A stretch of 43,115 bases of DNA from contig CP070632.1 in assembly GCA_020356065.1 (NCBI GenBank), forward strand, positions 1,487,944 through 1,531,058. Direction: 5' to 3'. The translations under genes and the position numbers were made by a program. The notes beneath the pieces are model-generated. The model ran no database searches. It had not been told where the DNA came from and saw only the letters and a program-made list of their open reading frames with translations. Below, piece by piece: positions 2,851 to 26,248 of the stretch (its first letter is position 1; each line of letters begins with the position of its first letter). This DNA is from Nitrospiraceae bacterium (lineage in GTDB: Bacteria > Nitrospirota > Thermodesulfovibrionia > UBA6902).

Positions 2851-3258
2851 TCACAACGGGATTCCGCTGATGCTGTCAACACTCCAGCCATAGAGGCTAG
2901 CAGTATTCTTTCTTACGGTAATCGTAACGTTCTGATAGTCTGCCGATGTATGCTGTGGTGTCACTTCCTGCAGAGTAATGAGGGATGCGTGGACTAAATA
3001 TCTTTCTGGTCCCATATACTTCCGGGCGCCTAGGGGTTCCCGTTCAATATTCCGTATCTCAAGCCTGACCACCTGAAGGTCTCTTGTTTTAAAGTACGCA
3101 TGTATTGCGTCTTGGATTTGATGCTCCGCAGGCTCAGGCGAACATCCTGAAACATGCATGAGTACACATACGACTGCAACTGTTGCTGCACTGTACCGTC
3201 TGAGGAGAACAATACAGCGGTTCAGTTCCGGTACGTGCATATTCATGCTTTTCCACAT
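2851..3258 (-). CDS. Small lipoprotein, unknown function
   Basis: A 135-residue ORF whose N-terminus has a hydrophobic segment (residues ~23-37) and a lipobox-like HVSGC with Cys39. The ~95-residue mature part (DAIHAYFKTRDLQVVRLEIRN onward) alternates short strands and helices and has no motif I recognise. The start is uncertain: ATG 3258 gives a long n-region, while ATG 3246 (preceded by GGAAAAG) and ATG 3240 give more usual signal peptides. It is convergent with the small gene ending at 2696, and the intrinsic terminator at 2746-2775 lies between them. Confidence 0.6.
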   Translation of the reverse strand: MWKSMNMHVPELNRCIVLLRRYSAATVAVVCVLMHVSGCSPEPAEHQIQDAIHAYFKTRDLQVVRLEIRNIEREPLGARKYMGPERYLVHASLITLQEVTPQHTSADYQNVTITVRKNTASLYGWSVDSISGIPL

Positions 3259-3367
3259 CGCTTTTAAAATCCAGATAAAGACATCATTGCCAGATACTTA
3301 CACATAAAGGCAAGGTCTGCACAGGTCTTTCAGCTCCCTTTACTCTATCACGCACTGCAATTAAAAA

Positions 3368-3438
3368 ATAGCCCTATTTCGTATGATATTTGAGCTTTAT
3401 GAGTAGCCTGATGAGATACGCCTTCGAAATAGGGTTAT
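3368..3438. repeat. Long-loop inverted repeat
   Basis: ATAGCCCTATTTCG (3368-3381) pairs with CGAAATAGGGTTAT (3425-3438), 13 of 14 bases, around a 43-base loop. It lies in the intergenic stretch between the divergent lipoprotein (start 3258) and DUF6502 (start 3582) genes. It could be a structured RNA or a small mobile remnant. I see no coding potential in 3259-3545. Confidence 0.45.
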
Positions 3439-3545
3439 GGAGTAGTGGAGTAATGCGAAAACTATTAATTGAAATCAATTCTCCATAACTTCATTCATCT
3501 ATTTAACGATTTCATGAATAAACCGAGATTAAGAGGATGTGATGC

Positions 3546-3574
3546 TTGACAAATTATAAATATGGGATTACAAT
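3546..3574 (+). promoter_or_regulatory. Strong sigma-70-type promoter giving a leaderless DUF6502 mRNA
   Basis: TTGACA (3546-3551), exactly 17 bases, TACAAT (3569-3574). Transcription start would fall at 3581-3582, which is the A of ATG 3582. No ribosome-binding site precedes that ATG, so the mRNA is predicted to be leaderless. The alternative is translation from TTG 3546, which has GAGG upstream but would make the TTGACA box coding sequence. Confidence 0.7.
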
Positions 3575-3581
3575 CCCAATT

Positions 3582-4382
3582 ATGAGCAGCAATGTCAATA
3601 AGGTCATATCTTCAGCAATAACCAGGCTTCTGAGACCCCTCGTGAGTATATTGTTAAATAATGGCATTCCTTATGGAACATTCTGTGAACTGGCAAAATG
3701 GGTATATGTAGATACAGCATCAAAGGAACTTGCCATTCCGGGGAGGAAACAGACGACTTCAAGAATTGCTGTTGTTACCGGCCTGTCCCGAAAAGAGGTC
3801 AAGAGATTACGGGAACTTTCAGAAATAGATGATCTCGGGGCTGCCGACCGTTACAATCGTGCTATTCGGGTTATTAATGGATGGCGCAGGGATTCCAATT
3901 TTATTGATGGCAGAGGATTACCCAAAGCGCTTTATTTCGAGGGGGACTTGAGCTTTTCATCGCTCGTAAAAAAATACAGCGGAGATATTCCGCCCAGGGC
4001 AGTGCTGGATGAGATGCTCAGATCAGGTGTTGTTAAGCAGGACAATGACAGAATCCGCCTTTTAACAGAAGGTTATATTCTGCAAAAAGGGGAAGCAGAG
4101 AAGCTTCATATTTTCGGTCTGGATTCCAGTGAATTCATAGCAACAGTGCGTCATAATCTGACCAGCAGTCCCTCCAACTCATTTTTACAGAGAAAAGTTT
4201 CATATGACAATATCCCGGACGGAGCGATCCCTGAATTAAGGAACATGCTTTCTGAAAAAGGAGCAGTATTTCTTGAATCCCTGGACAGAATAATTTCTAA
4301 ATATGACAGAGACGTCAATCCATCCATCAGAGGAGAGGGACGGAAAAAGGCAGGACTGGGAATCTTTTATTTCGAAGAATAA
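3582..4382 (+). CDS. DUF6502 family protein
   Basis: From ATG 3582 the product is 266 residues. The opening SSAITRLLRPLVSILLNNG, the GIPYGTFCELAKWVYVD segment and a helix-turn-helix-like stretch (TSRIAVVTGLSRKEVKRL, about residues 60-77) match my memory of the DUF6502 family, small cytosolic proteins with a winged-helix flavour. I infer a DNA-binding or regulatory role; the family function is not established as far as I know. It is followed after 28 bases by a DUF5666 lipoprotein on the same strand. A TTG start at 3546 with GAGG upstream is possible but would overlap the promoter at 3546-3574. Confidence 0.75.
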   Translation: MSSNVNKVISSAITRLLRPLVSILLNNGIPYGTFCELAKWVYVDTASKELAIPGRKQTTSRIAVVTGLSRKEVKRLRELSEIDDLGAADRYNRAIRVINGWRRDSNFIDGRGLPKALYFEGDLSFSSLVKKYSGDIPPRAVLDEMLRSGVVKQDNDRIRLLTEGYILQKGEAEKLHIFGLDSSEFIATVRHNLTSSPSNSFLQRKVSYDNIPDGAIPELRNMLSEKGAVFLESLDRIISKYDRDVNPSIRGEGRKKAGLGIFYFEE

Positions 4383-4410
4383 CATATCAATATACACGGA
4401 GGGACATACC

Positions 4411-5829
4411 ATGGCATCACAAACAGAAGGACGGTTTAAGAGTAAATGTATGAGAACTGCTATTGTCCTTGTTATCGTATTGTCACTTGCATCATCTTGC
4501 GGCGAAAGTCTGGTAACCCTTCTTTCCGGAGGAGGGATAAGCGGGACTGGAAGATTTCTGGGCATCATCGCCGGTTTTGGCAGTATCTTTGTAAACGGAG
4601 TTGAGATAGAGACCACCAGTGAAACAAATATCTTTATTGATGATGTCAGTGCAAATGAAAATGCTTTGAGAGTTGGGATGAAAGTTGAGGTCATTGCCAC
4701 TGATAATGTCGCTTCCACAGTCACCTATAATTCAGAGATCAGAGGACCGATCGAAAGTGGAAGTCTAAATATCATTAACAATACCTTTTCTGTTTTGGGT
4801 CAGACAGTAATGGCAGACGGAACAACTGTATATGACGGATTAAGTGGGTTTGCACAACTGCAGGAAAATTATATTGTTGAGGTCAGTGGTTTTGCAGACG
4901 CTACCGGCACTATTCTGGCTACCTTTGTTGAGCTTGAAGACTCAGGACTTCAGGAGTTTAAGCTCAGGGGTAATGTATCAAATCATAACGCAACTGTAAA
5001 AAGATTCTTCATCAATAACATTACAGTTGACTACAATACACTCCAAAACCCCCCGTCTATTGCCAATGGTTCTTCGGTAGAAGTAAAGGGTACACTGGAT
5101 AATAATATTTTTATTGCATCAGAGATTGAAATTGAGGATTTTTCTCTTGCATCAGGAGAAAAAGTGGAACTTGAAGGAATAATTACGGCAAAAACGTCCC
5201 AAACTGATTTTTCGGTCGGCCCACAGCAGGTGCAGATTAATGCTGATACTGTTTTTGAACATGGAACTGCAGCGGGCATCGAGACCGGCATGCGAATTGA
5301 AGTTAAAGGTTCAGTAAACAGCAACAGCATTCTCGTAGCAGAAAGAGTTGAGTTCCGGTTCGTGGAATCAAAGAGTATAGAAATTGAAGGCATAGTTGAG
5401 ACAATTGATACGGACAAATCAACAGTAACGGTAATGGGAATCACTATCCACGTTGATACCAATACGGGACTCATAGATGAGGTGTTTGAATTAAGGCCCT
5501 TTACCCTGTCAAATATCCAGCCGGGAGACTTTCTCGAAATTAGAGGATTTGTTGATAATGAAGGTAACATTGTTGCCATTATACTTGAAAGAGATGAGAT
5601 GCCGGAGCAGGACGAGTTTGAGTTCAGGGGGCCTGTGGACGCTATAACGCCCAATACTGCTATCGAGATACTGGGAGTTTGGGTGGATCCTGGCGCAGCC
5701 CTTGACAACAGCAACGACGCTGCTGCCTTTTTTAATGAAATAAACGTGGGAGATATCGTAAAGGTAAAGGGAGGTTTTTCTGGCAGAATTTTTACTGCAA
5801 ACGAGCTTGAAATAGTGAGTCTGAATTAA
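4411..5829 (+). CDS. Lipoprotein with six DUF5666 repeats
   Basis: ATG 4411 has GGAGGG nine bases upstream, so I take it over an earlier in-frame start inside the previous gene. The 472-residue product has a signal peptide ending in the lipobox LASSC (Cys30). The rest is about six ~65-residue beta-rich repeats. The first opens with the diagnostic GTGRFLGIIAGFGSIFVNGVE; later ones show the recurring GxVEVKGxxxxNxxxxAxxIE pattern (e.g. GSSVEVKGTLDNNIFIASE, GDIVKVKGGFSGRIFTANE). DUF5666 domains are OB-fold-like beta units of unknown role in cell-envelope proteins. The 28-base spacing suggests co-transcription with the DUF6502 gene, so the pair may be one envelope system with its regulator. Confidence 0.8.
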   Translation: MASQTEGRFKSKCMRTAIVLVIVLSLASSCGESLVTLLSGGGISGTGRFLGIIAGFGSIFVNGVEIETTSETNIFIDDVSANENALRVGMKVEVIATDNVASTVTYNSEIRGPIESGSLNIINNTFSVLGQTVMADGTTVYDGLSGFAQLQENYIVEVSGFADATGTILATFVELEDSGLQEFKLRGNVSNHNATVKRFFINNITVDYNTLQNPPSIANGSSVEVKGTLDNNIFIASEIEIEDFSLASGEKVELEGIITAKTSQTDFSVGPQQVQINADTVFEHGTAAGIETGMRIEVKGSVNSNSILVAERVEFRFVESKSIEIEGIVETIDTDKSTVTVMGITIHVDTNTGLIDEVFELRPFTLSNIQPGDFLEIRGFVDNEGNIVAIILERDEMPEQDEFEFRGPVDAITPNTAIEILGVWVDPGAALDNSNDAAAFFNEINVGDIVKVKGGFSGRIFTANELEIVSLN

Positions 5830-5917
5830 TCTCTCTTTGAATGCAATTTATCTTCAAATTTCTTTTATTTTTTTATCACGTGAGATATCAGACAATTATC
5901 ATTTTTAAACAATATTA

Positions 5918-5966
5918 TTTAAAAGGTACTGCAGGATATACCATACATTATGTATTACCTTTTAAA
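5918..5966. promoter_or_regulatory. Nested palindrome upstream of the cytochrome operon
   Basis: TTTAAAAGGTA (5918-5928) and TACCTTTTAAA (5956-5966) form a perfect 11-base inverted repeat. Inside it lies a second palindrome, ATACAT-T-ATGTAT (5943-5955). There is no T-tract, so it is not a usual terminator. It sits ~93-140 bases upstream of the start expected from the -24/-12 element at 6033-6048, where enhancer-binding activators normally bind. The binding role is inference. Confidence 0.45.
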
Positions 5967-6021
5967 AACTAACCAAGAAAATAATATAAAATAACATTAA
6001 ATATTAAGAGCTTTTCATTAT

Positions 6022-6053
6022 AGCAAATCAGGTGGCATTAGATTTGCTTTTTT
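6022..6053 (+). promoter_or_regulatory. Ambiguous element: sigma-54 -24/-12 promoter or intrinsic terminator
   Basis: Two readings overlap. TGGCAT (6033-6038), five bases, TTGCT (6044-6048) puts GG and GC exactly twelve bases apart, the sigma-54 -24/-12 spacing; the start would be near 6059. The same bases also form AGCAAATC (6022-6029) / GATTTGCT (6041-6048), an 8-base stem with an 11-base loop followed by six T residues, a plausible terminator for the DUF5666 gene. Both cannot be decided by eye. The remainder of 5830-6184 is AT-rich and non-coding. Confidence 0.5.
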
Positions 6054-6090
6054 ATTTTATCACAAATTGTTTGGGATATATTTCCCATCG

Positions 6091-6106
6091 TGTGATTGTG
6101 ATCACT
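6091..6106 (+). promoter_or_regulatory. CRP/FNR-superfamily-like binding site before the cytochrome gene
   Basis: TGTGATTGTGATCACT matches the CRP consensus TGTGA-N6-TCACA in nine of ten defined bases. It is centred near 6098.5, about 87 bases before the GTG start. A weak -10 (TAATCT, 6128-6133) lies where a class II (-41.5) arrangement would put it. No regulator of this family is encoded in the window. Confidence 0.5.
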
Positions 6107-6114
6107 TTCTAATG

Positions 6115-6138
6115 TAATAAGAAACTTTAATCTTATTA
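6115..6138. promoter_or_regulatory. Inverted repeat between the CRP-like site and the cytochrome start
   Basis: TAATAAGA (6115-6122) / TCTTATTA (6131-6138) with an 8-base centre. It overlaps the possible -10 at 6128-6133, so a repressor site is one option; a small leader hairpin is another. Confidence 0.35.
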
Positions 6139-6184
6139 TATGTTTTTTGGATCGGGCCGAATTTCCATGAGAGGTAAAGCATAA

Positions 6185-9100
6185 GTGAAGTTATTAATAA
6201 TAAAGAAGTTGATGGTGTTGATGTCGCTTTGTCTGGTATCCCTTTTCACAGTCAATATGGGCAGTTCTTATGCTCAATGGCTGTCTCCGGGCAAACTGAC
6301 CAAATCTCATAAAGAGATTGAAGGATTGGCGAATTGCACAAAGTGCCACCAGCTTGGAAAAGGCATTTTGAACTCATTATGTATGTCATGCCATGAAAAG
6401 CTTATCGCCCAGATAAAAAATAATAAGGGCTTTCACTCGAGGCTTAAAGATCCATGCATTTCGTGTCACACAGACCATAAAGGTGAAGACTATAACATTA
6501 CCAGCCTTGACAAGGATAAATTTGATCATGACAAAACAGGGTACGTACTGAAGGCCAAACACAAAGTGTTATGTGAAAAATGTCATCGGGAGGAAAAGAC
6601 GTATCTTGGACTGACGCAGGAATGCACAGGTTGCCATACTGACCTGCATAAAAAGCAACTTGCCAGAGACTGTCTGCAATGTCATACCTTTCAGGATTGG
6701 AATAAGACGAACTTTGATCACGCTAAGTCAATATACAGGCTTACCGGGAAACATACTGATGTTCAATGTCAAAAATGTCATTCAGGTTCTTCGATCAACA
6801 GCGATGGAAAGCCCGGTGATGTTAAAGCGGCATATACGTCCCTTCAGTACAAACCTCTTTCTCATGACAAATGCAATGATTGTCACTTTGATATTCATAA
6901 AGGTGAGCTTAAAAAGCAGACCTGCACAGAATGTCACTCAACTGAAGGATGGGATAAGAAAACATTTGAGCACAACAATCCTCACTTAACCGATTTCAGT
7001 CTGGAGGGCAGGCACGAAAAGGTTGCCTGCGAACTCTGTCATATAGAGGAAACCTTCAAATACGAACAGAATGGCAAAACAGTTGAACGGGTCGCGAGGA
7101 GACTTACATCAATTAAGCATGCAGGATGCAATGACTGTCATTATGATGTGCACACCGAGCAGTTCAGGGACCAGCGTTGTGACAGCTGCCATACCGTTGA
7201 GAACGAGTGGAAAAAAACTGTATTCACCCATGATTCAAAGGATTATAAAGGGTTTAAACTTGTAGGGAAACATATTGATGTTGAATGCAAAAAGTGTCAT
7301 CAGCAGAATGAAATAAAGTATACGGAATTTCACAAGAAGAAAAAGACAACTCTGGGTACATTCAAACCTGTTAAGTCAGAGAAGTGCAATGACTGTCATT
7401 ATGATGTGCATAAGGAGCAGTTCAGGGGCCAGCGTTGTGACAGCTGCCATACCGTTGAGAATGAGTGGGAAAAAACTGTATTCAGACATGAATCGAAGGA
7501 ATATAAAGGATATAAACTGGAAGGCAAACACAGTGATGTTGAGTGCAAGAAGTGTCACAAACAGGATACGGTCAGGTATGTAGAATTTGGACAGACCAAA
7601 GAGTCCCTGATCGGGCAGTTCAAACCAACGGAACATGACACCTGCCTGGTGTGCCATGAGGACAAGCATAAAGGGCAGTATCAGGAAAAGTGCAGCCACT
7701 GCCATTCACCTGTAAGCTGGGATCCGAAGAATTACCTTCATGATCCCCTTTCCCTCGAGTTAAAAGGTGCCCACAAAACACTTGCGTGTATTGAGTGTCA
7801 CATGGGAATGAAGGACTTTAAGGGGCTTGACTCTGAATGCATAACGTGTCATCAGAAGCAGGACCCGCACCTGAACCAGTTCGGCCAGTTCTGCGATGAC
7901 TGCCACAGGCAACAGGCATGGATCCCGACTGACTTTAAACATACCAGTGTAGGGTTCAGGCTTGCCGGCGGTCACAGGGAGGCTGACTGTAAGGACTGCC
8001 ATATCAACAGGGACTACAGAAATACATCTACAGATTGTTTCGAATGTCATATTGAGGATTACCAGACAGCTCCTAATCATCTGACGAGACAGTATCCGCA
8101 GGAATGTGATAAATGTCATAACCCTTCGTCAGTATGGGAGAATGTGAGTTATGACCATACAGCATTTACATTCAGAGGAGCCCATAATGCCATACGAAAT
8201 GGCTGTGCAACGTGTCATGATGCCCCGGTGCAGATGCCCATGGGAACTACTGATGATGACTGTTACAACTGTCATTCTTCAACAGGCGTGGCTGTCACCA
8301 CATATGAAGGGACTCTTAATCCTTCACATACATTGTTCAACTTCAGCTACACATGCACGGATTGTCACACTGTTGATTCCTGGATGGGTGCGAATTATAC
8401 GCATCAGAATTTCCAGCAGAACGGGCTACATGCATCACTGGACTGCACGGCATGTCATGCAAGCGGGTATCCCGGCAACTATGCAGGGGCTGCCCAGAAT
8501 GACTGTTATACCTGTCACCAAAATGATTATAACGGTGCACTAAATCATATAAACTTTAACTTTCCGCAGGACTGTACCGTATGCCATTCAGGTAACAGCT
8601 GGTCAGGAGCGAGTTACAGCCATCAGAGTTTTCAATTAAGCGGAGTGCATACCATACTGGATTGCACGGCATGTCATGCAAGCGGGTATCCCGGAGAGTA
8701 TGCAGGCACAGCAGACGATGATTGCTATGCCTGTCATTCAAGTGATTATCAAAACGAATCTGAACATGCTGAATCAGGTTATCCCCAGGACTGTACCACA
8801 TGTCATTCAGTAAACAGCTGGGAAGGAGCAGCCTTCCAGCATGTGAATTTTAAGACAAAAGGAGTACATACCACTCTTAACTGTACAGCCTGTCATACCA
8901 CTGGTTATCCCGGGGAACTGGCTGGTACAACAGACGATGAATGCCATACATGCCACGTGAGTGATTATGAAGGAGCTCCTAACCATGCATTATTTAATTA
9001 TCCTCATGACTGTTCTGCCTGTCATCTAGATAATAGCTGGACAGGGGCCAGTTTTACTCATCAAAGCTTAAACTTAAACAGCCTGCACTCGGCACTGGAT

Positions 9101-9469
9101 TGTACAGCATGCCATGCCAGCGGCTATCCGGGCAATTACGCAGGGGCATCACAGAATGACTGCTTTACCTGTCATCAGAGTGATTACAACGGAGCTCCTA
9201 ATCATACTGCATTCAGTTATCCCCAGGACTGTACGACCTGCCACTCGGGCAACAGCTGGCAGGGAGCAACGTTCCAGCACCAGAGCTTTCAGCTTAGGGG
9301 TATACACGCAACATTAAGCTGCAATGCATGTCACAGTAGCGGCTATCCCGGCAATTATGCCGGAACTTCAGATGATGAATGTTTTACATGTCATGAAAGT
9401 GATTACAACAGGGAGCACAATAACCAACCGCATGACTGCACACAATGTCACGACCTGTGGGGCTGGTAA
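6185..9469 (+). CDS. Giant secreted multiheme c-type cytochrome with 42 CXXCH motifs
   Basis: GTG start at 6185 with GAGAGG upstream. The 1,094-residue precursor has a clear signal peptide (residues 1-30, cleavage after SSYA). I count 42 CXXCH heme-attachment motifs, one per ~25 residues, plus many extra histidines that could be distal ligands. The N-terminal half is built of ~86-residue modules (CNDCHYDVH, CDSCHTVENEW, VECKKCH); the C-terminal half of 73-residue three-heme modules (CTACHASGYPG, CYTCH, PQDCTVCH, NSWSGASYSH). The composition is cytochrome c3/c7-like, with no catalytic signature such as those of nitrite, hydroxylamine or octaheme reductases. I infer an electron-transfer wire in the periplasm or outside the cell. 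It heads a same-strand unit with a barrel protein (7-base gap) and a quinol-type cytochrome b. Confidence 0.92.
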   Translation: MKLLIIKKLMVLMSLCLVSLFTVNMGSSYAQWLSPGKLTKSHKEIEGLANCTKCHQLGKGILNSLCMSCHEKLIAQIKNNKGFHSRLKDPCISCHTDHKGEDYNITSLDKDKFDHDKTGYVLKAKHKVLCEKCHREEKTYLGLTQECTGCHTDLHKKQLARDCLQCHTFQDWNKTNFDHAKSIYRLTGKHTDVQCQKCHSGSSINSDGKPGDVKAAYTSLQYKPLSHDKCNDCHFDIHKGELKKQTCTECHSTEGWDKKTFEHNNPHLTDFSLEGRHEKVACELCHIEETFKYEQNGKTVERVARRLTSIKHAGCNDCHYDVHTEQFRDQRCDSCHTVENEWKKTVFTHDSKDYKGFKLVGKHIDVECKKCHQQNEIKYTEFHKKKKTTLGTFKPVKSEKCNDCHYDVHKEQFRGQRCDSCHTVENEWEKTVFRHESKEYKGYKLEGKHSDVECKKCHKQDTVRYVEFGQTKESLIGQFKPTEHDTCLVCHEDKHKGQYQEKCSHCHSPVSWDPKNYLHDPLSLELKGAHKTLACIECHMGMKDFKGLDSECITCHQKQDPHLNQFGQFCDDCHRQQAWIPTDFKHTSVGFRLAGGHREADCKDCHINRDYRNTSTDCFECHIEDYQTAPNHLTRQYPQECDKCHNPSSVWENVSYDHTAFTFRGAHNAIRNGCATCHDAPVQMPMGTTDDDCYNCHSSTGVAVTTYEGTLNPSHTLFNFSYTCTDCHTVDSWMGANYTHQNFQQNGLHASLDCTACHASGYPGNYAGAAQNDCYTCHQNDYNGALNHINFNFPQDCTVCHSGNSWSGASYSHQSFQLSGVHTILDCTACHASGYPGEYAGTADDDCYACHSSDYQNESEHAESGYPQDCTTCHSVNSWEGAAFQHVNFKTKGVHTTLNCTACHTTGYPGELAGTTDDECHTCHVSDYEGAPNHALFNYPHDCSACHLDNSWTGASFTHQSLNLNSLHSALDCTACHASGYPGNYAGASQNDCFTCHQSDYNGAPNHTAFSYPQDCTTCHSGNSWQGATFQHQSFQLRGIHATLSCNACHSSGYPGNYAGTSDDECFTCHESDYNREHNNQPHDCTQCHDLWGW
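6872..7642 (+). repeat. Tandem ~258-bp heme modules inside the cytochrome gene
   Basis: Module starts (first TGC of CNDCH) fall at 6872, 7127, 7385, with a degenerate one at 7643. The spacings are 255, 258 and 258 bases. The copies at 7127 and 7385 are nearly identical for their first ~85 bases (CNDCHYDVH through VENEW), which points to recent duplication; the one at 6872 is clearly older. Confidence 0.85.
8444..9469 (+). repeat. Tandem 219-bp heme modules inside the cytochrome gene
   Basis: Module starts fall at 8444, 8663, 8882, 9101 and 9320, exactly 219 bases (73 codons, three CXXCH) apart; the fifth is cut short by the stop codon. The amino-acid pattern is CTACHASGYPGNYAG, then DCYTCH, then PQDCTTCHSGNSW, then HQSFQLxGxH. 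Uninterrupted periodicity implies growth by whole-module duplication. Confidence 0.9.
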
Positions 9470-9476
9470 TCAAGGA

Positions 9477-11312
9477 ATGATAGAGCAATCAATAAGAATA
9501 ATGAATATGCTGAACTTAACGGTCAAACATAAAGCAATGTCTTGCCTGTTACATTCAGGAAGAATTCCAGGTTATGTGCTTATGATTGTCTTCCTTATAT
9601 TTATATTGTTACCTGTAGACCTTCACGCAAAAGACACAGAGATCTATACCGTTCAGACAGGGAGCTTTACAGTAGACACTATAGCAGAGGAACATTTCAA
9701 TTCATTATTAAAAGCGTTTGATAAAAGTGAAAATAATCACCTGAGAATTGAGAAAGTCGGAGATTTTTATGCTGTACGGGTAGGTAAATTCAGGGACCAT
9801 GCCGCTGCAAGTAAATTTCTCCAGTCAATGTCTGCTCAAGTTAAGGAAGCTATTATTTTAAAGGCCTATTTTAATGAGGAAAATTTCATCAAGTCTTCTT
9901 CAAAGGCAGTGAAAGCAACACTGGAAGAAAACAAAGTGAAGCCAACGTTCTCAACGGATATGTTAAATGCAACCATAACTGAAATCAGTCAGGACAAAAA
10001 ACCTGCCGCGAAAACTGAACTCATTGCAGGCACAGATGAAAACCTGAAAGCAGATGATACCAACAATACATCTGAATCTACGGTTCAGCCCCTCAGGAAC
10101 AGGACAGAGAAAAAACAGAAAAAATATGAAGACATTCACGGAAGGGTATATATCAGCGATTACTATTCAAATGACAGCAACAACTTTGATTTTCATGTGC
10201 TGTCTTCAAGGTTAAAGGTATACCAGAGGGAAAATGATAACAGCCGGTATTACTTTAAATTTGATGGCAGGGCAAGAATGAAAGTTTCTGACAATGATGT
10301 GCATAACGATATACCTGAGTTTAAATTATATGAAATATGGATTGGTTATAAATTCCCGGTACAGAGGCTTGACGTCATTACAGGGAGACAGCATATCCTT
10401 GAGATGTATAACACAAGTGTTGATGGAATTAATACAAAGTTCAGGTTCAGAGACGACATCGGGATAGGCATATTTGCAGGTCTCGCACCCGATAAATATG
10501 ATTATTCCTTTAATTCCAAGTTTAAAACTGCAGGCGTTTACAGCTTTCTTGACAGGGACAGGTATAAATTAAAGTTAGGATATGAAAAGCTGTTTTACGA
10601 TGGGAAAACGGACAGGGAATATTTATCATTCAAGCTGTATTCAGATTTTAATAAAAAAATGTGGTTCAACCTGTTATCTTCCGCCAGTATCAACCAGATT
10701 ATAAACAGTATAGATGTGGATAATATGAGTACAAATCTGCTCTACAAATTCTCCAGGGATCTTCGTGTCAATTTCTTTTTTAATTATTACAGGGCCATAC
10801 GATACTTTGAATCTTCAAAGAAGTTTATTTCCCACAACGGCATCCCGGACGATTATTACCTTGATACAAACCCGCAATCAAGACTAGGGGTCAGAATTAA
10901 TTACAGGCTACTGAAAAAACTGACCGTATACACATCGGCGGCATATCAGCACAGAGATATAGATGATGAAAGTGCTACCCGGTTTACCGGAGGATTCAGA
11001 GCATATGATCTCCGTCGGTTTAATCTTTCAGGCCGCTATACACGTATAAACAACTTTACATCCAAGAGTAATGAATTTAATCTGGAAGTCTCCAGGTTCT
11101 TCCTCGACAAGTTTGATGTATCTGTATACGCTAGCCATGAACAGGAAGAGCTTGACATAGAAAACGGGTTTACAGCCGGACTGCTGACCTATGGTGCCTC
11201 TTTGTACTGGACAATTAACAAACACTATTTTATTTCAATGTTTCTTGAGCGATATGATGAAGATGACTATGACAACACGTCGATGTTCACCCAGGGCGGT
11301 TACAGGTTCTGA
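9477..11312 (+). CDS. SPOR-domain plus outer-membrane beta-barrel protein
   Basis: I use ATG 9477, the first start after the cytochrome stop; ATG 9501, 9507 and 9537 are also possible and none has a convincing ribosome site, so translational coupling is likely. From 9477 the protein is 611 residues. A hydrophobic signal segment (about 31-51) ends VDLHA. Residues ~56-135 resemble a SPOR domain (EIYTVQTGSFTVD, DFYAVRVGKFRDHAAASKF), which binds denuded peptidoglycan. After a low-complexity linker, residues ~225-611 are alternating amphipathic strands with many Tyr/Phe and Arg/Lys, ending in GGYRF; the terminal aromatic is typical of BAM-inserted outer-membrane proteins. Its place between a 42-heme cytochrome and a cytochrome b suggests the porin of an electron conduit. 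No CXXCH is present. Confidence 0.75.
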   Translation: MIEQSIRIMNMLNLTVKHKAMSCLLHSGRIPGYVLMIVFLIFILLPVDLHAKDTEIYTVQTGSFTVDTIAEEHFNSLLKAFDKSENNHLRIEKVGDFYAVRVGKFRDHAAASKFLQSMSAQVKEAIILKAYFNEENFIKSSSKAVKATLEENKVKPTFSTDMLNATITEISQDKKPAAKTELIAGTDENLKADDTNNTSESTVQPLRNRTEKKQKKYEDIHGRVYISDYYSNDSNNFDFHVLSSRLKVYQRENDNSRYYFKFDGRARMKVSDNDVHNDIPEFKLYEIWIGYKFPVQRLDVITGRQHILEMYNTSVDGINTKFRFRDDIGIGIFAGLAPDKYDYSFNSKFKTAGVYSFLDRDRYKLKLGYEKLFYDGKTDREYLSFKLYSDFNKKMWFNLLSSASINQIINSIDVDNMSTNLLYKFSRDLRVNFFFNYYRAIRYFESSKKFISHNGIPDDYYLDTNPQSRLGVRINYRLLKKLTVYTSAAYQHRDIDDESATRFTGGFRAYDLRRFNLSGRYTRINNFTSKSNEFNLEVSRFFLDKFDVSVYASHEQEELDIENGFTAGLLTYGASLYWTINKHYFISMFLERYDEDDYDNTSMFTQGGYRF

Positions 11313-11316
11313 TGTG

Positions 11317-11340
11317 ATATGAAACACATTTATTTCATAT
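11317..11340 (+). promoter_or_regulatory. Hairpin just after the barrel gene
   Basis: ATATGAAA (11317-11324) / TTTCATAT (11333-11340) with an 8-base loop, starting five bases after the stop codon and followed by a short T-rich stretch. It is a weak terminator or mRNA-processing hairpin that could lower expression of the cytochrome b gene relative to the two genes before it. Confidence 0.4.
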
Positions 11341-11413
11341 ATTTTCTGTTACTTTTATGAACATGACCGGAATTTAAAATAATAAGAATGACCATTAATC
11401 AGAGGAGGATAAA

Positions 11414-12280
11414 ATGGGATATCAAAAACACAAAAATTTTATGCTGAGGTGGCTCACAAAAGAATTAACGCCACAAAGTCACCGGATAAGAAAAAGTATA
11501 AAAAAACCGGATGATAACAAAACCGTACATAAAAAACATTCTCAGTCAAACAAAATCCTCAGATTCAGAAAATCAGAACGACATCTGCACTGGGCCATAG
11601 CAATTCCCTTTATGATTTGCTACATGACAGCCCTTATCCTTGTATTTATTTACAATCCCAATCCGCTGAAAGCTCATCGTGAGATCTTCTCGCTTATTCA
11701 CAGAGTTTCGGGCGTATGCCTAATCATACTGCCTTTACTTGCCATTATCAAAAGCAGAAAAGACATCAGGATGTATTATTACAATATTAAGCAGGCGTGG
11801 GTATGGACATTTGAAGATGTCAAATGGCTTGTCATGATGGGTCTGGCATCTATCAGTAAGAGATTTAAGCTGCCGGAACAGGGGAAGTTCAATGCGGCAG
11901 AAAAAATCAACTTCATGATGTTAATGGCCACGTATCCCCTCTATGTTGTTACCGGAATGTTTATATGGCTGACTAACGGAGCCTTACTGTCCTGGATCAT
12001 CCATTTTGGCATGGCTCTGCTTGCAACCCCTTTATTAATTGGGCACAAGTTTATGGCCACCATTAATCCTGATACCAGGATAGGACTCTCAGGCATGATC
12101 AATGGTTATGTGGACCGTCACTGGGCAAAACATCATTATACGAAATGGTACAGGGAGCATTTTGAAGAGAGCCCGACACCTCACCATCCTCAGCCTCAGC
12201 ATGCAATGACTGATGATAACCTCGTTCCGGTTCCCGTAGAAACTCATGCAAAGACTCCACAGCCTGTTGAAGCAGCTTAG
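11414..12280 (+). CDS. FdnI-like di-heme cytochrome b membrane subunit
   Basis: ATG 11414 has AGAGGAGG seven bases upstream. The 288-residue protein has a ~50-residue basic cytosolic N-terminus, four membrane segments (about 60-80, 93-113, 166-187, 190-213) and a Pro/His-rich tail. Four histidines sit where the cytochrome b561 / formate dehydrogenase gamma family carries its heme ligands: H59 (RHLHW), H96 (SLIHRVSG), H197 and H211. The 14-residue spacing of the last two equals that of FdnI (H155/H169). Such subunits exchange electrons between quinones and periplasmic partners. With no dehydrogenase subunit nearby, I infer it links menaquinol to the multiheme cytochrome encoded upstream. Gap to the barrel gene is 101 bases, with the hairpin at 11317-11340. 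Confidence 0.85.
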   Translation: MGYQKHKNFMLRWLTKELTPQSHRIRKSIKKPDDNKTVHKKHSQSNKILRFRKSERHLHWAIAIPFMICYMTALILVFIYNPNPLKAHREIFSLIHRVSGVCLIILPLLAIIKSRKDIRMYYYNIKQAWVWTFEDVKWLVMMGLASISKRFKLPEQGKFNAAEKINFMMLMATYPLYVVTGMFIWLTNGALLSWIIHFGMALLATPLLIGHKFMATINPDTRIGLSGMINGYVDRHWAKHHYTKWYREHFEESPTPHHPQPQHAMTDDNLVPVPVETHAKTPQPVEAA

Positions 12281-12291
12281 GGTGAGATATA

Positions 12292-13107
12292 TTAAAATTG
12301 AATGTTCTGGTCCTGTGAACGAACATACATGTCAGGTCTTCTGTCATTGATAATATTATTGTATTGATTCAGCATCTTGTCTCGTGCCTCAGCCGGATCA
12401 AGATCTGTGATCATGACTGCCTCTTCATCGTCAGGGGCCCGCAAAAGAATCTGCCCTTTGGGAGAAACGATCTCACTTTTTCCGATAAAGGTTAGAGGTT
12501 TCTTCCCATGTCTCAGCTCGGTCCCGATTCTGTTGGCTGTTATCGCATAGGTCATATTTTCAAGGCACCTGACCGGCATGGCATCGGGACAGAATGGAAG
12601 AACAAGGTTAGACGGGTGTGCTATAATATCAGCACCTTTAAGTGCGAGGGCCCTCATGGATTCCGGATAAAACCAGTCAAAACAGATCATTATTCCAAGA
12701 CGGCATATACCGATGTCCCATACTTTAAATCCTGTATCTCCACGCGTAAAAAATAATGTCTCTTCAAAAAAGAGATGTGTTTTTCTGTAAACACCAAGAA
12801 ATCCATCCGGGCCGGTCAGTACAGCAGAATTATAATATCTGTCACCATCCTTCTCCGGAAGGCCCGCGACAACAAACATGTGTTTATCGTGAGACAGCTT
12901 CAGGAGTTCCCGGGTTGTTCTCCCGTCAGGGATCTCTTCTGACAGATCAGCTACCTCATCGATTGAAGCAAACTGATATCCTGTGGCAAAAAACTCGGGC
13001 AGGACCAGAAGATCCATCTCTCGGTTTTTAACCGTATCCCTGACCTTTTCAACATTAGCGTTAATATCACCAAATAAGGGATTCAGCTGATAAAATCCAA
13101 CTATCAT
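12292..13107 (-). CDS. Carbon-nitrogen hydrolase (nitrilase superfamily)
   Basis: A 271-residue protein with the complete nitrilase Glu-Lys-Cys triad: E38 in LLVLPEFFATG, K109 in VYRKTHLF, C142 in GIMICFDWFYPES. Length fits the amidase branches of the superfamily (omega-amidase, N-carbamoyl hydrolases, carbamoylputrescine-type). There is no transporter or synthetase domain that would fix the substrate. No Shine-Dalgarno is seen at ATG 13107, but a promoter is positioned for a leaderless mRNA. It converges with the cytochrome b gene (11 bases between stops) and diverges from the DUF362 gene. Confidence 0.88.
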   Translation of the reverse strand: MIVGFYQLNPLFGDINANVEKVRDTVKNREMDLLVLPEFFATGYQFASIDEVADLSEEIPDGRTTRELLKLSHDKHMFVVAGLPEKDGDRYYNSAVLTGPDGFLGVYRKTHLFFEETLFFTRGDTGFKVWDIGICRLGIMICFDWFYPESMRALALKGADIIAHPSNLVLPFCPDAMPVRCLENMTYAITANRIGTELRHGKKPLTFIGKSEIVSPKGQILLRAPDDEEAVMITDLDPAEARDKMLNQYNNIINDRRPDMYVRSQDQNIQF

Positions 13108-13113
13108 CTACAT

Positions 13114-13143
13114 AAAATACCACTATCAATGAAGGATTGTCTA
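13114..13143 (-). promoter_or_regulatory. Promoter of the nitrilase-family gene, leaderless geometry
   Basis: On the minus strand TAGACA (13138-13143), 18 bases, TATTTT (13114-13119). Only six bases separate the -10 box from ATG 13107, so transcription should start at or next to the start codon. Confidence 0.5.
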
Positions 13144-13211
13144 ACACGGATTATTCATTGGAAGCCTGTTCCCATGGAGCAAATTATCAATTTACCTTAA
13201 GTCAGGTCTGC

Positions 13212-13217
13212 TAAAAT
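13212..13217 (+). promoter_or_regulatory. -10 box of the DUF362 gene
   Basis: TAAAAT ends eight bases before ATG 13226, which would leave a leader of one or two bases. I see no good -35 match (TTTACC at 13191-13196 is 15 bases away). The gene has no Shine-Dalgarno. Confidence 0.35.
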
Positions 13218-13225
13218 ACCTTACT

Positions 13226-14335
13226 ATGACAGAAGTAATAATCAAAAGCGCTGAATATGAATATGATATTCTGAAACCGGTTGTTTTCGAGTTTATGAAC
13301 GCACTGGGAGGAAAGCGAATAAGTCAGGACAGCCGTGTCATAATCAAGCCAAACCTGCTGGCCGCAGCTGTTCCGGAAAAAGCGATCGTGACCCATCCCA
13401 TGGTTATCAGGGCCGTGGTCGAGTTTGTGAATGAAAGGGGAGCAAGGCCGCAGATCTCTGACAGTCCTGCTATCGGGACGTTCCAAAAGATCCTCGATGA
13501 AAGCGGAATAACACAGGCCATTAAGGGGCTGAATGTTGAGTGCAGGGAGTTCAAAGGTGCCGTGAACGTAGACATCGGCAGGCCGTTTAACAGCATTGAG
13601 ATAGCCAGGGATGCTATGGAAGCTGACTTTCTCATTAATCTGCCAAAGCTCAAGACACATGCACAGATGAAGCTTACGCTTGGGGTGAAAAACACGTTCG
13701 GGTGCATTATCGGCATGAAAAAACCAGAGTGGCATCTCAGGTCCGGAGTTGACAGAGAGCTGTTTGCAGATCTCCTTGCAAGGATATCCAAAGCTGTCAA
13801 ACCTGACATTACCATTATGGACGGCATTCTTTCCATGGAAGGTCAGGGGCCTGGCAAGGGCGGCACGCCAAGGAAACTTGGAGTAGTTATGGGAAGCAGG
13901 AGTCCGGCTGCTATTGATATTGCCGTTTGCAAAATGATTGGCCTGGATCCTCTTTCATTGCTTACCAATAAAATGTCAGCCCTGACCGGCCCGGCAATAG
14001 AAGATGTAACCATTACCGGGGAGTTGCCTGCAATATCCGAATTTGAACTGCCAGTGATGTCACCCGCCGTTTTCGGGCCGGTTGCTCTGCACAGTTTTAT
14101 CAGAAAGCACCTTGTTCAAAGACCGGTCGCTGATCCTTCACTATGTCGAATGTGTGGAGAATGCCGGAAATACTGTCCTGCGCATGCTATCACGCAGGAT
14201 AAGAAGAAGATATACTTTGATTATGATACGTGCATACGGTGTTACTGCTGTCTTGAGGTCTGTCCGCACGGTGCTTTAACAGCAAAAGAGTCAATGCCGG
14301 GCAGTGTCGTGAGGAGACTATTAAGAATTCGATAA
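13226..14335 (+). CDS. DUF362 protein with C-terminal 2[4Fe-4S] ferredoxin domain
   Basis: A 369-residue protein. Residues 1-~290 match the DUF362 fold: RVIIKPNLL, THPMVIRAVVEFV, FLINLPKLKTHAQMKLT and GVKNTFGCI are its usual landmarks. The C-terminus carries two clusters of cysteines, CRMCGECRKYCP and CIRCYCCLEVCP, ligands for two [4Fe-4S] clusters. Such proteins are common in anaerobes; the substrate is generally unknown, so I assign only a redox or iron-sulfur function. It overlaps the convergent HD-GYP gene by 15 bases. No Shine-Dalgarno precedes the ATG. Confidence 0.88.
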   Translation: MTEVIIKSAEYEYDILKPVVFEFMNALGGKRISQDSRVIIKPNLLAAAVPEKAIVTHPMVIRAVVEFVNERGARPQISDSPAIGTFQKILDESGITQAIKGLNVECREFKGAVNVDIGRPFNSIEIARDAMEADFLINLPKLKTHAQMKLTLGVKNTFGCIIGMKKPEWHLRSGVDRELFADLLARISKAVKPDITIMDGILSMEGQGPGKGGTPRKLGVVMGSRSPAAIDIAVCKMIGLDPLSLLTNKMSALTGPAIEDVTITGELPAISEFELPVMSPAVFGPVALHSFIRKHLVQRPVADPSLCRMCGECRKYCPAHAITQDKKKIYFDYDTCIRCYCCLEVCPHGALTAKESMPGSVVRRLLRIR

Positions 14336-24054: not shown

Positions 24055-25128
24055 ATGTCCCTAAAGAAAATTGAAAAGAAAGTCTTGTCCGGGAAGCGGT
24101 TAACCGAGGAGGAATGTCTTTTGTTATTTAAAAGCGACGACCTCTTTACTATAGGCCGACTTGCCAACCACGTTGCTGAACAGAAGAACGGCAATAATGT
24201 TTATTTTGTTAATAATCATCATATCAATCCAACTAATGTCTGCGTTAACAGATGCACATTCTGCGCCTTCAGCAAATCCAAAGGCGAAAAAGGAGCGTAT
24301 GAACTTGACATTAGAAAAATTTTAAATAAACTTAAAACTCAAAATTCAAAACGCAAAACTCAGTTCTCAGAAGTCCACATTGTCGGCGGTCTTCACCCTG
24401 AATGGACTTTTGATTTTTATCTTGAGCTGACAAGAGCAATAAAGAAGGCGTTGCCATCGTTACATATCAAGGCCTTTACTGCTGTTGAGATAGATCATTT
24501 TGCAATGATAAGCGGTCTCTCATTAGCGAACACCTTGAGATCACTTAAAGATGCAGGACTCGAATCAATGCCGGGCGGCGGTGCCGAAATATTCAACACC
24601 CGGGTGCGAAATAAAATCTGTCCTGAAAAAATCAGCGGCAGACGCTGGCTTAAAGTGATGGAGACAGCACACAAAGCTGGAATAAGGACTAATGCCACCA
24701 TGCTTTACGGTCATCTTGAAACTTACAGGCATAGAGTTGAGCACATGATGAAACTCCGTGAACTTCAGGACAAAACAAACGGCTTTCAGGCATTCATCCC
24801 TTTGGCCTTTCATCCCATGAACACAACTATTGAAGGAGCAGAATATACATCAGGCATTGATGACCTTAAAACAATTGCAATATCAAGACTCATGCTGGAC
24901 AACTTCGATCATATCAAGGCCTACTGGGTCATGCTCGGTGAAAAAATAGCACAGCTTGCCCTTAAATTCGGAGCTGATGATCTTGATGGGACTATTATTG
25001 AAGAAAAAATAACCCGCTCAGCAGGAAAGCTTGCTTCAGATGCAATGACCAGAGATGAACTGATTACCCTCATTCAGAAAGCCGGCAAAGTGCCGGTAGA
25101 GAGAGACTCGTTTTATAACCCGGTGTAA
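24055..25128 (+). CDS. mqnE: Aminofutalosine synthase (radical SAM)
   Basis: A 357-residue radical SAM protein with CX3CX2C at C63, C67 and C70 (CVNRCTFC), then AFSKSKGEKGAY, EVHIVGGLHPEW and SMPGGGAEIF, as in MqnE. MqnE joins 3-((1-carboxyvinyl)oxy)benzoate to SAM to make aminofutalosine in the futalosine route to menaquinone. Bases ~24328-24361 (KLKTQNSKRKTQ) are a low-complexity A-rich run of AAAACTC-type units placed just before the conserved EVHIVGG, as if an intergenic repeat had entered the gene in frame. mqnC follows after four bases. Confidence 0.93.
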   Translation: MSLKKIEKKVLSGKRLTEEECLLLFKSDDLFTIGRLANHVAEQKNGNNVYFVNNHHINPTNVCVNRCTFCAFSKSKGEKGAYELDIRKILNKLKTQNSKRKTQFSEVHIVGGLHPEWTFDFYLELTRAIKKALPSLHIKAFTAVEIDHFAMISGLSLANTLRSLKDAGLESMPGGGAEIFNTRVRNKICPEKISGRRWLKVMETAHKAGIRTNATMLYGHLETYRHRVEHMMKLRELQDKTNGFQAFIPLAFHPMNTTIEGAEYTSGIDDLKTIAISRLMLDNFDHIKAYWVMLGEKIAQLALKFGADDLDGTIIEEKITRSAGKLASDAMTRDELITLIQKAGKVPVERDSFYNPV

Positions 25129-25132
25129 GAAG

Positions 25133-26248
25133 TTGAATACGCTACAAAAAACTAAAAAGACAAAACCTTTCTCCCCCCGCATCTCCAACCGGGAAGGCCT
25201 TTCGCTTCTGAAGAACGCTGACCTGCTTGGTCTTGGCATGATGGCGGATGAGCTGAGAAAAAGGCTGCACAGTGATAACCATGTTTCATTCATCATCGAC
25301 CGTAATATTAACTACACGAACGTCTGTATTAATGAATGTAAATTCTGTGCGTTTTACAGGGAGAAAGATGCCCCTGATGCGTACGTCTTAAGCAAGCGCA
25401 AACTGTTCAATAAAATCCGGAAGACCATCAGGTGCGGGGGCACGCAGATTCTCATTCAGGGCGGTCTGCACCCTGATCTTGGTGTTGATTATTATATCGA
25501 TCTGCTTACATCAATAAAATCTGCATTCGATATCCATGTTCATGGGTTTTCACCTCCTGAAATTTATTACATGGCAGACAAGGCAGGTTATACCCTGAAA
25601 AAAACGATACAGCTCCTGCAGAAGGCAGGACTTGACTCCATACCCGGCGGTGGAGCTGAAATACTCTCCGACAGGATAAGGGAGATAGTAAGCCCGAAAA
25701 AAATAGTTTCCGGACAATGGCTTAAGGTAATGGAAGAGGCCCACAAGCTAGGGATGAAAACAACAGCGACCATGATGTTCGGCAGCGTTGAGGGGCCGCA
25801 GGATATCATTGACCATCTTGATGCAGTCAGGAAACTGCAGGACAGAACTGGCGGGTTTACGGCATTTATTCCCTGGAGCTTTCAGCCCGGGAATACGGAA
25901 CTGCAACGGTCAGTAAACATAAAACACCGTAAGGGCGTATTGCCATACGCCCCTGCAACAGCTTCGGGTATTGAATATCTTCGCGTGCTTGCCCTTTCAA
26001 GAGTGTATCTTGATAACATCCCGAACATCCAGGCTTCATGGGTTACACAGGGGCTGAAAATGGCACAGGTCGCATTGAGGTTTGGTGCGAATGACTTTGG
26101 CTCAACAATGCTGGAAGAAAACGTTGTTGCCGCTGCCGGGGTAAAGTACCGAGTTACTGTTGATGATATTATAAGCGCAATAAAAAGTTCGGGCTTTCAA
26201 CCTGTCCAGCGGGACATGTATTACAATATAATAAAAAAAGGGTTCTAG
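25133..26248 (+). CDS. mqnC: Cyclic dehypoxanthine futalosine synthase (radical SAM)
   Basis: TTG start at 25133, four bases after the mqnE stop, with only AAGAAG upstream, so translation is probably coupled. The 371-residue protein has CX3CX2C at C65, C69 and C72 (CINECKFC), then ILIQGGLHPDLG, GFSPPEIYYMA, SIPGGGAEIL and FIPWSFQPGNTEL, the MqnC landmarks. It cyclises dehypoxanthine futalosine on the way to menaquinone. Between GNTEL and the conserved GIEYLR lie ~15-18 additional residues (NIKHRKGVLPYAPATA) encoded by a palindrome-bearing segment at 25933-25952. The open frame is intact and downstream motifs (NIPNIQASWV) are conserved, so the enzyme is probably functional. Confidence 0.93.
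   Translation: MNTLQKTKKTKPFSPRISNREGLSLLKNADLLGLGMMADELRKRLHSDNHVSFIIDRNINYTNVCINECKFCAFYREKDAPDAYVLSKRKLFNKIRKTIRCGGTQILIQGGLHPDLGVDYYIDLLTSIKSAFDIHVHGFSPPEIYYMADKAGYTLKKTIQLLQKAGLDSIPGGGAEILSDRIREIVSPKKIVSGQWLKVMEEAHKLGMKTTATMMFGSVEGPQDIIDHLDAVRKLQDRTGGFTAFIPWSFQPGNTELQRSVNIKHRKGVLPYAPATASGIEYLRVLALSRVYLDNIPNIQASWVTQGLKMAQVALRFGANDFGSTMLEENVVAAAGVKYRVTVDDIISAIKSSGFQPVQRDMYYNIIKKGF
25933..25952. repeat. Palindromic unit inside mqnC
   Basis: GGGCGTAT, TGCC, ATACGCCC: an 8-base perfect stem with a 4-base loop, the same geometry as the htpX terminator stem (GGGCGAAC-GGTT-GTTCGCCC). It is read through in frame as part of mqnC. Confidence 0.7.

Follow-up and report, generated by a model that had tools for sequence, protein, structure and literature searches.

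The question raised by this locus is whether three neighboring genes, encoding a 42-heme c-type cytochrome, a protein with a barrel-like C terminus, and a cytochrome b, could together form an electron conduit across the outer membrane and, if so, how such a conduit relates to those already described. The closest precedent is the PCC3 porin-cytochrome cluster, described from genomes in 2017 by He et al. (PMC5566968). It pairs a periplasmic cytochrome of 21–27 hemes with a repetitive extracellular cytochrome that is rich in Ser, Thr, Ala, and Gly and variable in length (PMC5566968; Gallionellaceae pangenome, PMC10734462). The localization of these cytochromes is a prediction, and the PCC3 conduit is putative and known from genomes alone (PMC5566968; PMC10734462).

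Gene Content of the Locus

The stretch of DNA that we analyzed, hereafter the window, spans 43,115 nucleotides (positions 1,487,944–1,531,058 of the 3.17-Mb single-contig genome G000). A preliminary description of this DNA had noted three same-strand genes for a protein with 42 CXXCH motifs, a SPOR protein with a barrel-like C terminus, and an FdnI-like cytochrome b, and this gene content was confirmed by open reading frames, Pfam matches, and homologues (Table I). We refer to the 42-heme protein as MHC and to the other two as gene 2 and gene 3. Pfam searches identified CN_hydrolase and DUF362 genes as neighbors of gene 3, and no Rfam element was found in window positions 3000–14000. Elsewhere in the window, two CofH/MqnC-type radical-SAM genes (24055–26248) are compatible with the mqnE and mqnC genes that had been named as the source of menaquinone, although they provide no specific evidence for a conduit.

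Table I. Features of the locus, in window coordinates
Feature	Position	Strand	Basis or remark
42-heme c-type cytochrome (MHC, gene 1)	6185..9469	+	GTG start, signal peptide, 1094 aa; CXXCH count, Pfam
MHC N-terminal part, signal peptide and hemes 1–24, Lys-rich	6185..8119	+	Putative equivalent of PCC3 periplasmic cytochrome
MHC C-terminal part, hemes 25–42, almost Lys-free, S/T/G/A-rich	8120..9469	+	Putative equivalent of PCC3 extracellular cytochrome
Gene 2, SPOR and predicted outer-membrane barrel protein	9477..11312	+	ORF from 9324; likely start 9477 or 9501
SPOR domain of gene 2	9642..9857	+	PF05036; this genome's copy only
Conserved predicted beta-barrel domain of gene 2	10128..11309	+	ORF residues 269–662; family homology, beta alternation
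Gene 3, FdnI-like di-heme cytochrome b, putative quinone-reactive subunit	11414..12280	+	PF01292, 1kqf_C, invariant His
DUF6502 protein, DNA-binding-like, likely accessory or regulator	3546..4382	+	PF20112; cluster membership tentative
Secreted or lipoprotein DUF5666 repeat protein	4303..5829	+	PF18914; cluster membership tentative

The Giant Cytochrome Has a Two-part Build

The MHC open reading frame contains exactly 42 CXXCH motifs and 93 histidines behind a signal peptide, and it matched the Pfam families Cytochrome_C7 (5e-44) and Cytochrom_c3_2 (3e-30). Its composition switches near residue 650: 24 hemes, 76 Lys, and 20 Arg are found in residues 31–645 (615 residues), against 18 hemes, 2 Lys, and 4 Arg in residues 646–1094 (449 residues), where Ser, Thr, Gly, and Ala are abundant. 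A similar switch was seen in fused homologues from two classes.

We compared the two parts with cytochromes that are encoded separately in other Nitrospirota. The 24 hemes of the free-standing cytochromes from all nine Nitrospirota PCC3-type clusters compared aligned onto window hemes 1–24 without exception. The heme-spacing correlation was 0.64–0.70, with other registers reaching 0.5–0.7; multiheme repeats align readily with one another, and a heme-by-heme match can by itself mislead. The nonrepeat N terminus of MHC (LSPG..., with first heme spacings of 15-25-39) is common to all compared cytochromes. Split clusters, found by searching the phylum with the PCC3-type inner-membrane protein, encode this protein together with two separate cytochromes. 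The first of these has 24 hemes and 18–19% Lys plus Arg and matches window residues 1 to ∼664 (1e-68 to 1e-83), and the second has 12–24 hemes and 5–9% Lys plus Arg and matches window residues 583–1005. As judged from these sequences, MHC is best read as a fusion of both PCC3 cytochromes, periplasmic (24 hemes) and extracellular (18 hemes), and not, as had been proposed, as one giant cytochrome that replaces several small ones.

In other lineages the first part carries 23 hemes (Emticicia) or 28 hemes (family f23), and the joint is thus near, not exactly at, heme 24. The alignments place it between heme 24 (residue 641) and hemes 25–28, its exact place being uncertain. A joint at residue 497, derived from the 10-heme protein of genome G023, was rejected because the G023 locus looks decayed and the split cytochromes put the joint after heme 24.

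No tandem DNA repeats were found in the MHC gene, although the protein has repeats. A sequence search of MHC against solved structures gave no match to any chain, and DmsE-family models matched it far below the cut-off. In six of ten relatives the contig begins or ends inside the cytochrome gene, and in a seventh this gene contains a run of N, indicating that the gene is hard to assemble and that the heme counts at those loci are minima.

Gene 2 Encodes a Probable Outer-membrane Barrel

Both probable starts of gene 2 lie just past the MHC stop codon, and the protein is secreted and ends in an aromatic residue (Phe). Residues 269–662 show a strand-like alternation of hydrophobicity (z of 4.0–5.5 versus shuffles); among the controls, annotated outer-membrane barrels gave z of 2.5–3.8, soluble alpha/beta proteins ≤0, and the all-beta DUF5666 protein 2.9. 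The C-terminal domain had no Pfam match, and a sequence search against solved structures matched no chain. Because an AlphaFold prediction of the barrel from five sequences reached a pLDDT of 32, too low to speak for or against a barrel, its assignment draws on sequence features, from which we conclude that the domain is probably an outer-membrane beta-barrel. At 395 residues, it is smaller than MtrB. In profile comparisons (hhalign) with the porins of the split clusters, the barrel scored ∼8e-6 group to group and 0.16 for one sequence, a weak relationship when unrelated barrels give 0.4–1.

The SPOR domain (PF05036) was detected at ORF residues 107–178 with 24.5 bits (cut-off 21). Its presence, and a possible role in anchoring the barrel to peptidoglycan, had been pointed out in the preliminary description; the domain is indeed here, but as a part of the system it did not hold up. 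Ten close barrel homologues (48–59% identity) match residues 269–662 only, and all are without SPOR. The N-terminal extensions of other such porins are TPR-like (split clusters), FlgT-like below the cut-off (f23), or without an assigned domain (Emticicia), so that peptidoglycan anchoring through SPOR would be private to this genome. The whole 3.17-Mb genome contains 26 SPOR matches above the Pfam cut-off, which suggests that the domain of gene 2 was probably picked up locally. Several of the 26 are in long proteins (frames of 969, 700, and 601 aa), and similar expansions occur in genus mates. SPOR may thus be a private addition, perhaps holding the complex to peptidoglycan, and is not to be counted as a defining part of the module.

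Gene 3 Encodes an FdnI-like Cytochrome b

Gene 3 encodes a protein of the cytochrome b561 type that matched Ni_hydr_CYTB (PF01292), and its sole solved relative by sequence was FdnI (1kqf_C, E = 1.4e-11), the gamma subunit of formate dehydrogenase-N, with which it has in common the four-helix di-heme b fold and the HX13H motif. This motif is formed by His197 and His211, which, like His59 and His96, are invariant in nine homologues. The protein nevertheless differs from FdnI in scoring 80.6 bits against the equivalog model TIGR01583, below the cut-off of 115.85, and in having no adjoining FdnG or FdnH genes. An AlphaFold prediction of the cytochrome b gave a pLDDT of 45.

A second, broken copy of the cytochrome b gene is present in the same genome (G000:C1:1775062-1775499; L002, L066), with 66% identity and two stop codons. 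No cytochrome or barrel gene adjoins it, and a molybdopterin oxidoreductase frame (1776892–1778157) lies ∼1.4 kb away.

The Gene Set Is Conserved

The three genes, which the preliminary description had treated as one unit, held together across genomes. In the window and ten relatives, a gene for a multiheme cytochrome matching MHC is directly upstream of the barrel gene at 11 of 11 loci, and an intact cytochrome b gene directly follows the barrel at nine of them; a remnant is found in G023, and the gene is absent in G051. Recurrence in ten other genomes indicates that the set is not due to chance. Among 396 genomes of the phylum, a strong barrel match was found in nine and a strong cytochrome b match in eight, with both in seven (hypergeometric 1e-12, shared descent being ignored). 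Genome G026 (L046) retains the same order over nearly ten kb, namely DUF6502, DUF5666, cytochrome, barrel, cytochrome b, CN-hydrolase, and DUF362.

The locus of G023 (L037 8505–10898) is shrunken, with a 10-heme cytochrome and a cytochrome b without the membrane core between two HWA motifs, and looks like a case of decay or misassembly.

Split, Fused, and Half Systems in Relatives

The relatives contain several arrangements of the same components. In f23 genomes, the two cytochrome genes are adjacent and separate and are followed by a gene for a barrel protein homologous to gene 2. In family f28, genes for fused cytochromes of 37–68 hemes are flanked by those for a PCC3-type inner-membrane protein on one side and a homologous barrel on the other, the inner-membrane protein being beside the fused cytochrome at all five loci that have upstream sequence. 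In the window family, the FdnI-like cytochrome b is found downstream in place of the PCC3-type inner-membrane protein, for which the G000 genome had no match at 1e-10. These cluster forms would line up as a chain of INTERMEDIATES: separate in f23, fused in f28, and fused with an FdnI-like cytochrome b in the window family.

In G075 (L062 2910–7835), a 1641-residue cytochrome with 68 CXXCH motifs lies between the PCC3-type inner-membrane protein and the barrel. Split PCC3-type clusters, in which a TPR-porin accompanies a 24-heme cytochrome, are present in many other Nitrospirota (L090–L095, L099–L101), and we found no published account of them for Nitrospirota. A DUF6502-DUF5666 gene pair lies upstream of fused and split clusters alike (window 3546–5829; L046 of G026; L100 1855–3743) and perhaps encodes a regulator and a secreted accessory protein.

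Two genomes link cytochrome b with the N-terminal part of the cytochrome. In G243 (L068 8070–9941), whose assembly has short runs of N within the heme repeats, an in-frame fusion joins the FdnI-like cytochrome b to the N-terminal heme module of the MHC type, with b first. In G011 (L065 8006–11027), a half system, the cytochrome b gene is divergent from that of a free 21-heme cytochrome corresponding to the N-terminal half, and no barrel is nearby.

Outside the phylum, plasmid pEMTOL02 of Emticicia oligotrophica (Bacteroidota; L069) encodes an inner-membrane protein that carries SGXXG in addition to both WX3HX13H motifs, two separate cytochromes with 23 and 40 hemes, and a barrel that matches gene 2 at 3e-9. 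A gene for a ferredoxin/NAD(P)-binding protein is inserted in this cluster. Carriage of a PCC3-like cluster on a plasmid is a possible route of spread. Plasmid matches from Sphingobium, Bradyrhizobium, Qipengyuania, Pontibacter, and Legionella were rejected as PCC3 references; they are different systems, in which the cytochrome adjoins an iron-reductase-like or FHA-domain protein.

Discussion

The locus resembles PCC3 in three respects: a porin gene, here a barrel judged by sequence only, adjoins that of a large multiheme cytochrome; a periplasmic cytochrome of ∼21–27 hemes has its counterpart in residues 31–645 (24 hemes) of the larger protein; and there is a quinone-reactive inner-membrane protein, here putative. 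It differs in lacking a separate gene for an extracellular cytochrome, whose equivalent is fused to the periplasmic part, in having an FdnI-like cytochrome b instead of the inner-membrane protein that carries two WX3HX13H motifs, and in the SPOR domain on its porin. Because the separate extracellular cytochrome and the PCC3 inner-membrane protein are both missing, we regard the locus as a variant of PCC3 and not as a member. The statement of the preliminary description that no characterized example is known is right in the biochemical sense, but it passed over the PCC3 clusters known from genomes since 2017 (PMC5566968).

Other systems share single aspects. Like MtrCAB/MtoAB and OmbB-OmaB-OmcB, the locus combines a porin with multiheme cytochromes for crossing the outer membrane, but neither a decaheme MtrA nor a barrel homologous to MtrB was found here, and there was no match to solved chains; MtrA has 10 hemes, and MtrB is a larger barrel. 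In CbcL/MtrH/MtoC, an FdnI/HydC-like cytochrome b is likewise paired with a multiheme c-type cytochrome, there for extracellular electron transfer (PMC6295460). The b and c parts of CbcL are, however, one protein with the c-hemes first (PMC6295460), whereas separate genes encode them in the window (6185–9469 and 11414–12280), and the G243 fusion has the opposite order. Cyc2 also solves the crossing of the outer membrane by gene fusion, but there a single heme is fused to the porin (PMC8406198), and here two multiheme cytochromes are joined and the porin is separate. In the open-access literature, with most subscription papers outside it, we found no description of such a fusion in Nitrospirota, and the passages found in papers on Nitrospirota porin-cytochrome complexes (Manganitrophaceae, PMC9040806; Sterkfontein karst, PMC13264449) describe none.

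We propose, with a probability of roughly two in three, that the three genes code for a PCC3-type porin-cytochrome conduit in fused form, leading from menaquinone to the cell exterior, with the cytochrome chain passing through the barrel. In the inner membrane, electrons would be exchanged between menaquinone and the FdnI-like di-heme cytochrome b. The Lys-rich part with hemes 1–24 would dock to this cytochrome b by its N terminus and span the periplasm, the chain would pass on through the gene 2 barrel, and the last 18, Lys-free hemes would lie outside and wire the cell to a mineral, a second cell, or an electrode. Here the barrel itself, its threading, the outside position of the C-terminal part, end-to-end conduction along the hemes, and the substrate are what we infer. 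The orientation is suggested by two relatives: because the cytochrome b of G243 is fused to the N-terminal heme module and that of G011 lies beside an N-terminal-half cytochrome, the N terminus is likely to be at the inner membrane and the C terminus outside. If the C-terminal part corresponds to a cytochrome whose predicted place is outside the cell, the chain must cross the outer membrane, for which the adjacent barrel would be the obvious passage. Given the pLDDT of the barrel model, threading is put forward as a proposal. That the 42 hemes (in relatives as many as 68) form an uninterrupted chain within a single polypeptide, running from the inner membrane through the periplasm and a separate barrel to the outside, is a more tentative idea, for which we see slightly less than an even chance.

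The direction of electron flow can be argued by analogy either way. FdnI-type proteins reduce menaquinone, an analogy favoring electron uptake. CbcL shares the FdnI-like domain but functions in electron export and would be an analogy for the opposite direction. It has been proposed to oxidize quinol, and the CbcL/MtrH/MtoC family is considered bidirectional (Zhong and Shi 2018, PMC6295460). The genome carries dsrA, CdhC, two COX1-family oxidases, and nine molybdopterin oxidoreductases, and it thus offers both internal acceptors and possible donors.

Part of the evidence could be read differently. The G011 locus pairs cytochrome b with a 21-heme cytochrome of the N-terminal half and has no barrel close by, which implies that this half works without a barrel, and the barrel model (pLDDT 32) gives threading no structural support. 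Both points would suit an MHC that stays entirely in the periplasm and takes electrons from the cytochrome b as a store or bus, next to a barrel that is an ordinary pore or scaffold and is not crossed. We consider this unlikely, since MHC and the barrel are adjacent at every locus of two distant families and the abrupt loss of Lys after heme 24 parallels the separate cytochromes predicted to be extracellular (PMC5566968). It is very unlikely that the whole MHC is exported to the surface, leaving the barrel or another small cytochrome alone as the link to the periplasm: a signal peptide is compatible with further export, and long repetitive cytochromes can be extracellular, but the N-terminal half has homologues among the cytochromes assigned to the periplasm and in the module fused to an inner-membrane cytochrome b, and the cluster has no other cytochrome gene.

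We also give little credence to the idea that MHC is made as one chain and cut after assembly into periplasmic and extracellular cytochromes, which would yield an ordinary PCC3 complex. In its favor, most clusters of the phylum are of the split form, and the junction differs by lineage (24, 23, or 28 hemes on the N-terminal side); against it, fused open frames have been kept in several independent assemblies of two classes. Least credible of all is that the three genes are neighbors without a joint function. The G051 locus without cytochrome b and the other membrane protein that takes its place in f28 could be cited for this, but synteny extends over 11 loci, and the replacement in f28 is a PCC3-type quinone-reactive protein.

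If such an uninterrupted chain is real, the conduit would be the first to have its periplasmic and extracellular cytochromes joined covalently in a single protein, and it would fix the topology of PCC3: the natural fusion predicts for PCC3 an N terminus at the inner membrane, a C terminus outside, and the chain inside the barrel. The quinone module of the inner membrane appears exchangeable, since one and the same wire would be supplied by a PCC3-type protein in some genomes and by an FdnI-like cytochrome b in others. Such conduits would be placed in Nitrospirota that are anaerobic and carry dsrA, and they could there connect sulfur metabolism with minerals or partner cells.
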